DNA of 64,000 nucleotides, taken from assembly GCA_016868315.1 (NCBI GenBank), contig VGHE01000001.1, forward strand, positions 186,001-250,000. The letters run 5' to 3'. Each line of letters opens with the position of its first letter. Positions within the stretch are counted from its first letter, which is position 1. Both the position numbers and the translations under genes were made by a program. This stretch comes from Betaproteobacteria bacterium. GTDB taxonomy: Bacteria > Bdellovibrionota_B > Oligoflexia > Silvanigrellales > Silvanigrellaceae. Under the pieces are notes generated by a model. The model was not told the DNA's origin and ran no database searches. It worked only from the letters and a program-made list of their open reading frames with translations. Below, one piece after another: positions 26,230 through 30,782 of this stretch.

Positions 26230-26368
26230 GGGTGAGGATCCTCCAGAAGAGTCCCCTCTTTGCATGAATTTCGTGAAATTCATAGAGTTTTCAGAAAAGG
26301 ACGGATGTGGTAGCGTCCGCGAGTTCAGTTTGTATACATTCCTGCAGAGAATTTTCAGGAGTTCACAG
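26230..26368. promoter_or_regulatory. divergent promoter region of the ABC/zinc operon
   Basis: This 139-nt gap separates the leftward methyltransferase from the rightward transporter operon. A TATACAT element at 26333-26339 is a candidate -10 for the transporter, about 30 nt before its ATG. No confident Zur-type palindrome was recognised by eye, although one would be expected if the operon answers to zinc. Confidence 0.3.
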
Positions 26369-27076
26369 ATGTCCCAAAGTGATCACGTTCTGACCATCAG
26401 CCATCTTCAGCATTCCTATGATGGCCGCGGGCTCGTTCTAGATGTCCCAAGTTTTCAGCTCAAGCGTGGGGAAATGTTGTTTCTTCATGGTCCCAGTGGC
26501 AGCGGCAAAACAACTCTGTTGAGCTTACTGACAGGTATCTTACCCATCCAAAAGGGTCACATTAAAATCCTGGGTCATGCTCTTGAGAAGCAATCGTCCA
26601 GCGAACGTGATGCACTCCGGGCAGTGCATATGGGTTATATTTTTCAAGTTTTCAATCTGCTGCCGTTTCTGAGTGTTCTAGAGAATATTCTTCTTCCGGT
26701 TGAAATGAATCAAACTCGGGCGCAGCGCCTGGGAGCATCGGGTTCGGCTGACGGCGAGGCTCGTCGTTTGGCAGAAAAGCTTGGCATTGCTCATCTTCTC
26801 GATGCGAAAGCTGGGCAGCTGAGTGTCGGGCAGCAGCAGCGTGTGGCGGCTGCACGCGCTCTTATTGGTCATCCTGACCTCATTGTTGCCGACGAACCGA
26901 CCTCCGCTCTCGACTCTGACCTGCGCGAGTCTTTCCTGAATACGTTGTTTGAACAGTGCCGGGCTCAGAACTCTTCGGTGTTGTTCGTCAGTCATGATCG
27001 TTCTCTCATGCCGCTCTTCGACAGAACTGTCGCACTGGCTGAAATCAACAAAGCGATGAAAGGAGCCGAGGTATGA
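26369..27076 (+). CDS. ABC transporter ATP-binding protein, LolD/MacB type
   Basis: The protein has 235 residues with Walker A GPSGSGKTT, Q-loop YIFQVFNLL, signature LSVGQQQRVAAARAL (Val for the usual second Gly), Walker B LIVADEPTSALD and switch His (VSHDRSL). It belongs to the group that serves FtsX-type permeases, and its own stop overlaps the start of such a permease by 4 nt. AGGAG lies 7 nt before the ATG at 26369. It probably powers the FtsX half of the fused protein encoded next. Confidence 0.92.
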   Translation: MSQSDHVLTISHLQHSYDGRGLVLDVPSFQLKRGEMLFLHGPSGSGKTTLLSLLTGILPIQKGHIKILGHALEKQSSSERDALRAVHMGYIFQVFNLLPFLSVLENILLPVEMNQTRAQRLGASGSADGEARRLAEKLGIAHLLDAKAGQLSVGQQQRVAAARALIGHPDLIVADEPTSALDSDLRESFLNTLFEQCRAQNSSVLFVSHDRSLMPLFDRTVALAEINKAMKGAEV

Positions 27077-29250
27077 CCCTTTTGAATATTCTTTGTAAAA
27101 GCCTGTGGAACCGTCGGCTGACCACGGTACTCACGGTTTTTTCTATCGCGCTGAGCGTTTTGCTCTTGCTGGGTATTGAACGTGTGCGGCTCGGTGCGCG
27201 AGAAAGCTTTTCCAACACCATCTCGCAAACCGATCTTATCGTTGGCGCCAAAGGTGGAACGCTACAGTTGCTGCTGTATTCAGTGTTTCGATTGGGCAGT
27301 GCGACTGCGAATATATCCTACGATGCATTTGAAAAGTTACGCAGCCATGCTGCCGTAAAGTGGGTGATTCCATACTCTTTGGGTGATAGCCATCGGGGCT
27401 TCCGTGTGGTGGGGACAAATGAGGATTTCTACACCAACTACCGCTACCGTCAGGATCGCACTGTGACCTTCGCCGAAGGCCAGGCTCCGACGTTGGTTTT
27501 TGATGTCGCGCTGGGCTCAGAGGTTGCAGAGGCTCTCAAGTATAAAATCGGCGACAGCGTTGCCGTTGCGCATGGAGTTATGGATGGCCCTGCGATCATT
27601 TCGCACGACGACAAGCCATTCAAAGTTGTGGGCATCCTTAAAAAAACGGGCACCCCTATCGACCGTTCTCTTTATATTAGCTTGGAAGGTATGGAGGCCA
27701 TCCACATGGACTGGAGCGATGGTGCTCCACCACGGCGCGGAGAGGAGACTCCAGCTCACTCTATTCGCAAAGAGGATGTTAAGGTCAAGCAGATTACTGC
27801 TGCTCTGGTGCGAACTAAAAACCGTTTCGAAACTCTGATGCTGCAACGAGAAATCAACACCTACGGAGACGAGCCTCTGATGGCCATCATCCCCGGTGTA
27901 GCCCTAGGTGAACTTTGGTCTGTTGTCTCATATGCTGAGGATGGTCTGCGCATTGTCTCGTGGGCTGTGTTGGTTGTAGGGCTGTTGGCGATGTTGATTG
28001 CCATATATACTTCGCTCCAAGAGCGACGTCGCGAAATGGCGATCCTAAGAAGTGTCGGTGCAGGTCTCAAAACAATCGCGGGGCTTCTCATTTTTGAGGC
28101 TCTGCTGCTGACCTTCGTTGGTGCTGCCCTCGGAGTAGTTCTGACTTATCTTGTTCTTGCGCTCACTCAACCTCTCATAGAATCGAGTTTTGGCATGTTG
28201 ATTCCCATCCAGCCTCTGAGTCCGACTGAATGGATTTTCCTCAGTGTTATTTTGCTTGCTGGATTCCTTGTTGGGCTTGCTCCGGCTGTGAAAGCATATC
28301 GCAATTCACTGGCTGATGGTCTGGCCGTTCGTTTTCTGATTCCTTTTTTCCTGCTGCTCATTCCTCAGGTCTCTGAGGCTAAAACTCTCCAGATTGCTTC
28401 AAGTGTGAGCTGGTTGCGTGAATTGGCCTATGAAGTCACCTGTGGCGGTAAAGGGGTTGAGCTTTTGCCGGCGCTCGTGCCTCCTGGAACTGACCCACAC
28501 ACCTACAAACTGACTCCGCGCAGCAGAATGATTTGGTCCAAAGCCGGCGTCCGTTTGATTGTCGGAGAGGGCTTTGAAAGCTGGCCTGAAAAGAATGCTG
28601 GCCAGGCCAATAAGCTTTTCACTGCCACCAAAAATCTCAATCTGCGCACGTTGGAAGCGCACGCCGAGGGCGAGGGTGCCGAAACAGAAGGGCGTGCTCA
28701 CTCGCGTACCAAAGCAACAAACAGCTTCGATCCATACATTTGGCATTCTCCGCGACTCACCCGCGAAGCTGCTTTGAACCTTTACAATTTTCTTGCACCC
28801 AGGGCTCCAGCTCTGCGCAACGAATGGGATACGTGCTTGCGGACTTTTGCTCAGCGAACAAAGGCTGTGGAGAGTGCTGTGCATGCAAAAGTTGCAACAA
28901 TCCCATCCTCACGACGTGTTCTTGCCACCAGACATGACTCCATGGGGTATTTCGCGAGTACGTTTGGTCTGAAAATCGTGACAATCTCGGGCGTCTCAAC
29001 GGAGGCTCAAGTGACTCCAGGACAGCTCAAGCGCGCCATCGATGCCATCAAAAAGTCTGGTGCAAAAGCAGTCTTTGCAGAAAGCACTGCATCTCCCGAA
29101 ACGGTGCAGAGGGTTGCTGCAGAGGTAGGTGTGAAAGTCGGTGGCGAGCTTTTCACCGATGGATTGTCAGCACCAGGAACGCCTGCTGGAAACATCACTG
29201 GACTCTGGGAAACCAACGCTGAAACGCTTGCAACCGGGCTGAGGCCGTAA
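27073..29250 (+). CDS. fusion of FtsX/MacB-like ABC permease and ZnuA-like zinc-binding protein
   Basis: The 725-residue frame is unbroken. Residues 1-420 are an FtsX/MacB permease: one N-terminal segment, an ectodomain (about 50-285), then three segments around SLQERRREMAILRSVGAG. Residues 421-436 (FLIPFFLLLIPQVSEA) look like the ZnuA signal peptide retained as a fifth membrane segment. Residues 437-725 are a cluster A-I metal-binding protein: DPHTYKLTP with His476, RHDSMGYFA with His621, and FTDGLSAPG with Asp696. The usual DPH before WLSP is DPY here (Tyr555). The acidic/His loop (about 535-550) is short, with two His. An odd number of membrane segments would put the binding domain in the periplasm, so the fusion is topologically sound. 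Expression as one chain is inferred. Confidence 0.85.
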   Translation: MTLLNILCKSLWNRRLTTVLTVFSIALSVLLLLGIERVRLGARESFSNTISQTDLIVGAKGGTLQLLLYSVFRLGSATANISYDAFEKLRSHAAVKWVIPYSLGDSHRGFRVVGTNEDFYTNYRYRQDRTVTFAEGQAPTLVFDVALGSEVAEALKYKIGDSVAVAHGVMDGPAIISHDDKPFKVVGILKKTGTPIDRSLYISLEGMEAIHMDWSDGAPPRRGEETPAHSIRKEDVKVKQITAALVRTKNRFETLMLQREINTYGDEPLMAIIPGVALGELWSVVSYAEDGLRIVSWAVLVVGLLAMLIAIYTSLQERRREMAILRSVGAGLKTIAGLLIFEALLLTFVGAALGVVLTYLVLALTQPLIESSFGMLIPIQPLSPTEWIFLSVILLAGFLVGLAPAVKAYRNSLADGLAVRFLIPFFLLLIPQVSEAKTLQIASSVSWLRELAYEVTCGGKGVELLPALVPPGTDPHTYKLTPRSRMIWSKAGVRLIVGEGFESWPEKNAGQANKLFTATKNLNLRTLEAHAEGEGAETEGRAHSRTKATNSFDPYIWHSPRLTREAALNLYNFLAPRAPALRNEWDTCLRTFAQRTKAVESAVHAKVATIPSSRRVLATRHDSMGYFASTFGLKIVTISGVSTEAQVTPGQLKRAIDAIKKSGAKAVFAESTASPETVQRVAAEVGVKVGGELFTDGLSAPGTPAGNITGLWETNAETLATGLRP

Positions 29251-29262
29251 GGAGTCGCAAGC

Positions 29263-29955
29263 ATAGCACTGAACTGGGAGAATCTAGTTGTCGGGCATCA
29301 AAATCGCTCGGCGCTCAATCACCCTTTTTCGGGACGTCTCGAGGATGGGGGGATTTATGCCATTATTGGCCCAAACGGTTGCGGCAAATCGACCCTTCTA
29401 AAGACTTGGTTGGGTTTGCTTTCACCATGGTCGGGTGAAGTCAAAATCAATGGAGCCTCTCCTGCTGCAGGCACTTTACCCCTGGCCTACGTTCCTCAGT
29501 CGCAGCAGGTAAACAAATACTTTCAAATCAGCGTCCAGGATTTCGTCATGCAGGGCTTTGGGCGTCATCCTCCGGCACCTGCTGATGCGCTGCCACGTGT
29601 CCGTACGGCGCTGGTGCAATGGGAACTCAGTGCCGATGCCCAAAAGTCTTTTCATCTTCTCAGCGGTGGACAAAAGACACGGGCGATGGTGGCTCGTGCT
29701 ATTCTCTCGAATCCCAAAATGATTTTTCTGGATGAGCCCCTTGCGAATCTCGACGCCTGCTGTCAGCAACAGCTGATGGACACTCTCCACGTTCTCGCGC
29801 ATCAGAACAACATCTGCGTGGTGATGGTCGACCATCATTTTGAAGCCTATGAGAAATTGCTTTCGGCTAAGTTTCTATTTGAGCGTTCTCACAATGCAGA
29901 AATATGCACCGTTCGTTTCGAGCCTAAGGATGACACATGCTGCAAGAAAAACTGA
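29263..29955 (+). CDS. znuC: ZnuC-type metal ABC ATPase with apparent ATA start codon
   Basis: The protein has 231 residues: Walker A GPNGCGKST, signature LSGGQKTRAMVARAI, Walker B MIFLDEPLANLD and switch His (VDHHFEAY). No ATG, GTG or TTG lies in frame between the preceding TAA (29248-29250) and Walker A; the first is a TTG at 29410, after Walker A. AAGGAG (29249-29254) sits 8 nt before an ATA at 29263, followed by ALNWENLVVG, exactly where the family N-terminus belongs. I therefore place the start there: either a rare AUA start, a mutated ATG, or a sequencing error. It would pair with ZnuB for zinc uptake. Confidence 0.75.
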   Translation: MALNWENLVVGHQNRSALNHPFSGRLEDGGIYAIIGPNGCGKSTLLKTWLGLLSPWSGEVKINGASPAAGTLPLAYVPQSQQVNKYFQISVQDFVMQGFGRHPPAPADALPRVRTALVQWELSADAQKSFHLLSGGQKTRAMVARAILSNPKMIFLDEPLANLDACCQQQLMDTLHVLAHQNNICVVMVDHHFEAYEKLLSAKFLFERSHNAEICTVRFEPKDDTCCKKN

Positions 29956-30002: not shown

Positions 30003-30782
30003 ATGGCTTTGCTTTGTACAATTCTTGTTGGGGCTTTGTGTGGATTGCTCAGTCCAACCATTGTTTTAAAGCAGCGCGCTTATATTGGCGACACACTCGC
30101 TCATTTGGTTTTTCCAGGCCTCGTTGCTGGATACTTTGCTGCAGCTGCCTTTGGTTTGCCGCTGTGGGGTGCAATGATGCTGGGGGCTGTCGTCACCGGA
30201 TTGGTGGGAAGCTTTGCGGTTGAGAGGCTGGAACGACTTTTGAATTTGCCTCCGGACAGCGCTGCTGTTCTGACCCTCACTGGTTTTTTTGCGGCTGGTG
30301 TCGTTGCTGTTTCCCGCTTGCGGGGCACGCGGCTTGACCTCGAGCGCTTTCTTTTTGGTGATGTGCTTAACCTCACCGATCTCGATGCTCTTTTGCTCTT
30401 CATAGTACTTTTCCTGGTCGCGGCGCTCATTTTCGTACTTCGCAAAGACTGGGATGCGTGGCTTTCGGATTCGGAATTTGCGCGTTTAATGGGTTTTCGG
30501 GTCGCTTTTATCGAACGACTTTTCCCGGTGGTCGTTACAGCCGCCGTGCTGACGGGGCTTGTTGCTGTGGGAGGGCTGATGATTTCGGCTCTTCTGACTG
30601 TTCCTGCAGCCTTACTGCCTCCAAAATCAGCATTTTCACCCCGAACAGTGGTTTTTAGCACGGTTCTTGCGCTTATTGGTTTGCTCGCAGTATTCGCTCT
30701 GGACTGGCCAGTGGGGAGCACCATCGTCCTTGTGGGCTTCGTTCTTGTTTTGGCAAAAGCCATCGTGGTAAGCCTCGCCTAG
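30003..30782 (+). CDS. znuB: ZnuB-type (ABC-3 family) metal permease, translated from an internal ATG if at all
   Basis: The readable frame of 259 residues has the ABC-3 permease pattern: about eight membrane segments, KQRAYIGDTLAHLVFPG near the N-terminus (family: ...R/K-xSxxGDxLxH), and the late ALLTVPAALLPP block. It would form the inner-membrane channel for zinc or manganese driven by the ATPase encoded upstream. The ATG at 30003 has no good Shine-Dalgarno and removes about 10 residues normally ahead of segment 1, because the natural start at 29937 is cut off by a TAG. Translation might restart here after the stop. Function is uncertain. Confidence 0.75.
   Translation: MALLCTILVGALCGLLSPTIVLKQRAYIGDTLAHLVFPGLVAGYFAAAAFGLPLWGAMMLGAVVTGLVGSFAVERLERLLNLPPDSAAVLTLTGFFAAGVVAVSRLRGTRLDLERFLFGDVLNLTDLDALLLFIVLFLVAALIFVLRKDWDAWLSDSEFARLMGFRVAFIERLFPVVVTAAVLTGLVAVGGLMISALLTVPAALLPPKSAFSPRTVVFSTVLALIGLLAVFALDWPVGSTIVLVGFVLVLAKAIVVSLA

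Follow-up and report, generated by a model that had tools for sequence, protein, structure and literature searches.

Permeases of the MacB fold with four membrane helices have their C-terminus in the cytoplasm. A membrane protein joined to its periplasmic partner by an internal signal peptide is known from the FbcH cytochrome b/c1 precursor of Bradyrhizobium, whose cleavage is established. ABC importers with binding domains tethered to the transporter have been described (PMC11065425, PMC8025302). For Vibrio cholerae, ZrgA is described as necessary for growth when zinc is limiting and ZrgB as a MacB-like permease with four helices (PMC9820375). The published studies conflict on the direction of transport by ZrgBC (PA4064-PA4065 in Pseudomonas aeruginosa), with zinc import on one side and metallophore export on the other: work on V. 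cholerae favours uptake of zinc by ZrgABC (PMC9820375), whereas a study from 2024 concluded that pyochelin-cobalt is exported by the P. aeruginosa homologue (PMC11481552). In the window analysed here (the whole stretch of DNA, 64,000 nucleotides, from a Silvanigrella-related genus), a preliminary description had noted one frame that joins an FtsX-type permease to a ZnuA-like protein. Our analysis identified this frame as a real, conserved gene fusion of zrgB and znuA in this genus.

Results

The 725 codons at 27073-29250 (+) are uninterrupted, with no stop at the joint, and the Pfam domains of the protein, all far over the cut-off, follow each other in the order MacB_PCD (residues 18-209, 2e-13), FtsX (294-411, 1e-15) and ZnuA (443-721, 7e-49). 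A single-frame, stop-free zrgB-znuA gene of 725 residues is also present in both other genomes of the genus (81% identity in G001, 69% in G002). The fusion was not found in the remaining 55 genomes of the class (58 genomes of the class/phylum were searched), the viral contigs searched contained no relative, and our literature search found no paper on a zrgB-znuA fusion. The open frame, the Pfam order and the two sibling genomes thus bear out the uninterrupted permease-ZnuA frame first claimed, and its domain limits (permease 1-420, ZnuA-like 437-725) agree with Pfam and with the ends of ZrgB relatives; proteins of identical domain order, which the preliminary description had proposed to look for, exist in G001 and G002 and nowhere else among the genomes of the class searched. 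Synonymous sites are saturated among the three fused genes (pS 0.67-0.88) while pN over both domains is 0.10-0.24, which indicates that the frame is kept by selection. Since it is open and insertion-free across this saturated divergence (G000, the window genome, G001 and G002), it is not an error.

Table 1. Features of the fused zinc locus and of its surroundings in the window
Feature	Positions	Strand	Basis
Perfect 9-base inverted repeat ATGAATTTC-GT-GAAATTCAT, candidate operator upstream of zrgC	26264..26283	.	
zrgC, ABC ATPase partner of the permease	26369..27076	+	Pfam ABC_tran; nearest NCBIfam DevA/FtsE/LolD; ATG 26369 taken as start
ZrgB half, residues 1-420, four-helix MacB-fold permease	27073..28332	+	Relatives in ZrgB context, 48-62%; MacB_PCD + FtsX; LolCDE/MacB fold match
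Joint, residues 421-436, internal ZnuA signal peptide with putative signal-peptidase-I site after A436	28333..28380	+	Invariant P431/A436, small -3, 11-residue core
ZnuA half, residues 437-725, cluster A-I metal-binding protein	28381..29247	+	Pfam ZnuA 7e-49; AztC/TroA alignment; model pLDDT 81
znuC, ATPase of the Znu transporter	29263..29955	+	Pfam ABC_tran; best NCBIfam AztA/MntA
znuB, ABC-3 family permease of the Znu transporter	30003..30782	+	Pfam ABC-3 1e-36; NCBIfam AztB, ZnuB

The permease half is best read as a ZrgB family member that differs by its C-terminal extension, an assignment that is well supported because the match extends to both sequence and operon. Named bacterial genomes were scanned with an alignment of the permeases of the class, and the best 80 relatives were used. 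These show 48-62% identity over residues 1-420 and come from Pseudomonas, Vibrio, Enterovibrio, Hyphomicrobium, Acidobacteria, Gemmatimonadales and others. A zrgC-type ATPase gene adjoins the permease gene in all 80, and homologues of zrgA and zrgE (DUF3299) lie within the fetched stretch in 74 and 77 of them, respectively; their locus corresponds to zrgABCDE of V. cholerae. In 80 of the 80, the C-terminus lies 1-3 residues past window residue 420 (a trait seen in these relatives, not a published defining feature of ZrgB), whereas the window protein continues into ZnuA. The fold of this half matches LolCDE/MacB. The NCBIfam MacB model scores it at 23 bits for a cut-off of 966. Tripartite MacB exporters have ATPase and permease in one chain and MacA and TolC as partners; at this locus, the ATPase has a gene of its own and none of the neighbours is MacA-like. 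The initial designation as an exporter-type permease should therefore be replaced, since the closest family is the Zur-linked ZrgB, whose transport direction is disputed in print.

Sister genera keep both genes side by side. Sister genus g5 has the arrangement (zrgA)-zrgC-zrgB-znuA-znuC-znuB-lysS-polA, where zrgB and znuA are separate and overlap by ATGA, and in G003 the GTG start of znuA is found a few bases past the TGA of zrgB, the genes being again separate. Gene order and the flanking genes lysS and polA do not differ between the fused genus and its sister genera. Because zrgB and znuA touch but remain separate in the latter, the fusion appears to be a late merger of neighbouring zinc genes. 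A single origin fits the ZrgB tree, in which the fused proteins of all three genomes group together in a single clade (support 100/99); deeper branches of the tree are weak. The neighbouring ZnuBC pair mentioned in the preliminary description is indeed encoded directly after the fusion (Pfam, NCBIfam). However, the layout that its author did not know is, in its unfused form zrgC-zrgB-znuA-znuC-znuB, normal in sister genera, and the lost stop is the sole novelty. As a separate observation, zrgB is in two pieces in G009 (L032:7333-8556) and intact in its near relative G010.

Residues 421-436 read FLIPFFLLLIPQVSEA, FLIPLIVFLVPNLSEA and FALPLLLLFSPEIARA in the three species, and only F421, P424, P431 and A436 are invariant at the joint. 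With A436 taken as position -1, position -3 is Ser, Ser and Ala and position -6 is Pro across the three species. A small residue at -3, Pro at -6 and Ala at -1 presumably correspond to the usual look of a signal-peptidase-I site, in a motif judged here on few sequences, three related ones. The uncharged stretch of the joint, which includes two prolines, is 11 residues long in all three species versus 19-23 in the four ZrgB helices. It is preceded by the positive residues K407, R410/K410 and R420, an orientation that suits a cut chain as well as a whole one. In the AlphaFold model of the fusion, pLDDT falls below 50 from residue 416 and the joint is not resolved; in the separate model of the ZnuA half (pLDDT 81), the first strand begins at residue 439. 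The joint appears to be the former signal peptide of ZnuA, with a conserved signal-peptidase site, directly preceding the folded domain. An uncut chain would hold the ZnuA domain against the membrane without a linker, because the fold begins at 439. Cleavage seems favoured because of the short core and the missing linker, and a cleaved precursor is more likely than a lasting fifth membrane segment. Two of the early predictions on the joint thus hold, its likeness to a signal peptide (11-residue core and kept cleavage motif) and its N-in orientation (positive charges before the segment), whereas the third, a lasting fifth segment that delivers the domain, fits poorly with the length of the stretch, its two prolines, the kept signal-peptidase site and the lack of a linker.

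The model of the ZnuA half resembles YfeA, AztC, MntC and ZnuA in Foldseek searches, with a TM-score of 0.77-0.87 depending on the target. When the half is aligned to AztC and TroA, the canonical metal ligands fall at positions 476, 555, 621 and 696, which are occupied by H476, Y555, H621 and D696 in the window copy. Residue 555 (28735-28737) is Tyr (TAC) in this copy versus His (CAC) in both siblings, so that the siblings have four of the four ligands of a cluster A-I site (three His and one Asp/Glu) and the window copy three; H558, three residues beyond, is present in all three fused proteins. The domain had been called a complete ZnuA-like one: its fold is confirmed by Pfam and Foldseek, but its completeness is not, given the Tyr at ligand 555. 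Separately, the apparent start of znuC is ATA (29263-29265) in the window and ATG at the same place in the siblings, and the next in-frame ATG/GTG/TTG (29410) falls beyond the Walker A motif. Both the Y555 codon and the ATA start are one transition away from the siblings. Taken together, they suggest that the Znu part of the window genome may be weakened; the two differences may be natural, weakening or base-calling errors.

The zrg genes of the fused genus are kept but scattered. While zrgC adjoins zrgB in the window, zrgA and zrgE are found at other loci of the genome: zrgA heads a cluster with genes for a COG0523-type GTPase and a Fur-family regulator (G000 and G002), and zrgE lies on another contig. 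One such cluster (L053:6924-9686) encodes ZrgA, a COG0523 GTPase of 578 aa with a C-terminal TPR-like region and the Fur-family regulator, and the same set is found in L056. We had also considered that zrgA was lost and replaced by ZnuA, which is ruled out by its presence on another contig in G000 and G002. Besides the fusion, the genome encodes two more ZnuA-family proteins. Behind a gene for a BBP2-like outer-membrane porin (L055:5101-8699), a third protein of the ZnuA family is encoded together with ABC genes of its own, and L062 has a similar set. The inverted repeat upstream of zrgC (Table 1) has a single exact copy in the genome, and a weaker form, TGAA-N10-TTCA, is kept at a like position in G002. 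In genus g5, a palindrome TTGCAA-N5-TTGCAA, a candidate Zur box, precedes zrgA (L027:5079, L028:8897, L029:9912, L030:4580); it was looked for upstream of the window operon and not found there. The palindrome upstream of zrgC and the Fur-family gene beside zrgA, as hints of Zur regulation, are leads only.

Discussion

The observed frame, its conservation, the families of both halves, the layout in sister genera and the kept cleavage motif are the basis of the account that we propose. We consider it moderately probable that zrgB and znuA were fused within a zinc-starvation operon (zrgC - zrgB::znuA - znuC - znuB) and that the resulting chain is cut into ZrgB and ZnuA. In the ancestor, zrgB and znuA would have been two distinct genes in direct contact, probably with coupled translation. 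The fused genus would then have lost the stop of the first and the start of the second, giving one chain of 78 kDa. The ZrgB part would finish in the cytoplasm, the old signal peptide of ZnuA would insert in the membrane and bring ZnuA to the periplasm, and signal peptidase I would most likely cut after A436. This would yield ZrgB and soluble ZnuA in equal amounts, and ZnuA could pass zinc to the ZnuBC transporter encoded by the two genes that follow and perhaps to ZrgBC as well. The fusion may also be a bacterial precursor whose cleavable signal peptide lies within the chain. Furthermore, the synthesis of ZrgB and of the binding protein of an importer as one translation product is independent evidence for a shared metal and a shared compartment, and the fusion is a concrete protein with which the direction of ZrgBC could be tested.

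As regards this direction, ZrgBC could here be an exporter of a metallophore or of cobalt, as proposed for PA4064-PA4065, with ZnuA capturing the metal released in the periplasm. This concerns direction only and is compatible with a cut as well as with a whole chain. It agrees with the MacB/LolCDE fold and with the 2024 study on pyochelin-cobalt but not with the V. cholerae work, nor with the joining of zrgB to the binding protein of an importer, and we regard it as a tentative possibility.

It is rather doubtful that the chain stays whole, with residues 421-436 crossing the membrane as a short fifth segment and ZnuA serving as a built-in receptor of ZrgBC, two per dimer, as in OpuA and GlnPQ. 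The single frame in three species, the right orientation of the segment, with positive charges preceding it, and the tethered domains of other importers are all consistent with such a protein. However, the 11-residue core with two prolines, the kept signal-peptidase site and a fold that starts at 439 without a linker argue against it, and a tethered ZnuA could not easily serve the adjacently encoded ZnuBC as well. We think it unlikely that the 78-kDa chain is never cut and that a classical ZnuA receptor is permanently built into a MacB-fold transporter. If true, ZrgBC would import zinc delivered by a cluster A-I binding protein, and transporters of two different folds could share a single binding protein. 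The tethered form, if real, would be more surprising than a cut precursor.

ZnuA could also be made separately by internal initiation within the end of zrgB, the fusion being only formal. The GTG codon 406, present in two of the three genomes, would yield a plausible long signal peptide, but it is missing in G002; because the three genomes share no in-frame start codon around the joint, this is very improbable. Finally, the removal of a stop codon by a sequencing or assembly error, which further odd bases of the window copy (TAC at the His555 position and ATA at the start of znuC) might evoke, has a negligible probability and is ruled out by the two siblings: length and frame agree between three independent genome assemblies at 69-81% identity.

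Comparison with known systems

The locus resembles ZrgABCDE of V. cholerae (PA4063-PA4066 in P. aeruginosa) by its ZrgB of about 420 residues, its ZrgC ATPase and the presence of zrgA and zrgE homologues in the genome, but here zrgB continues into znuA, and zrgA and zrgE lie outside the operon. It shares with ZnuABC and AztABC, which combine a cluster A-I binding protein with an ABC-3 permease, the grouping of ZnuA, ZnuC and ZnuB in one operon, the ZnuA fold and three of the four ligands; it differs from them in that ZnuA is the C-terminal part of the permease of another transporter type and has a Tyr at one ligand. OpuA and GlnPQ, type I importers with a tethered domain, likewise have binding domain and permease in one chain with the domain outside the membrane, but the fusion has a MacB fold, a cleavable-looking signal peptide and no linker. 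Overall, these two are the closest known parallel for the tethered form, whereas FbcH is the closest one for the cut precursor that we favour, although its proteins are unrelated and the cleavage is inferred here.
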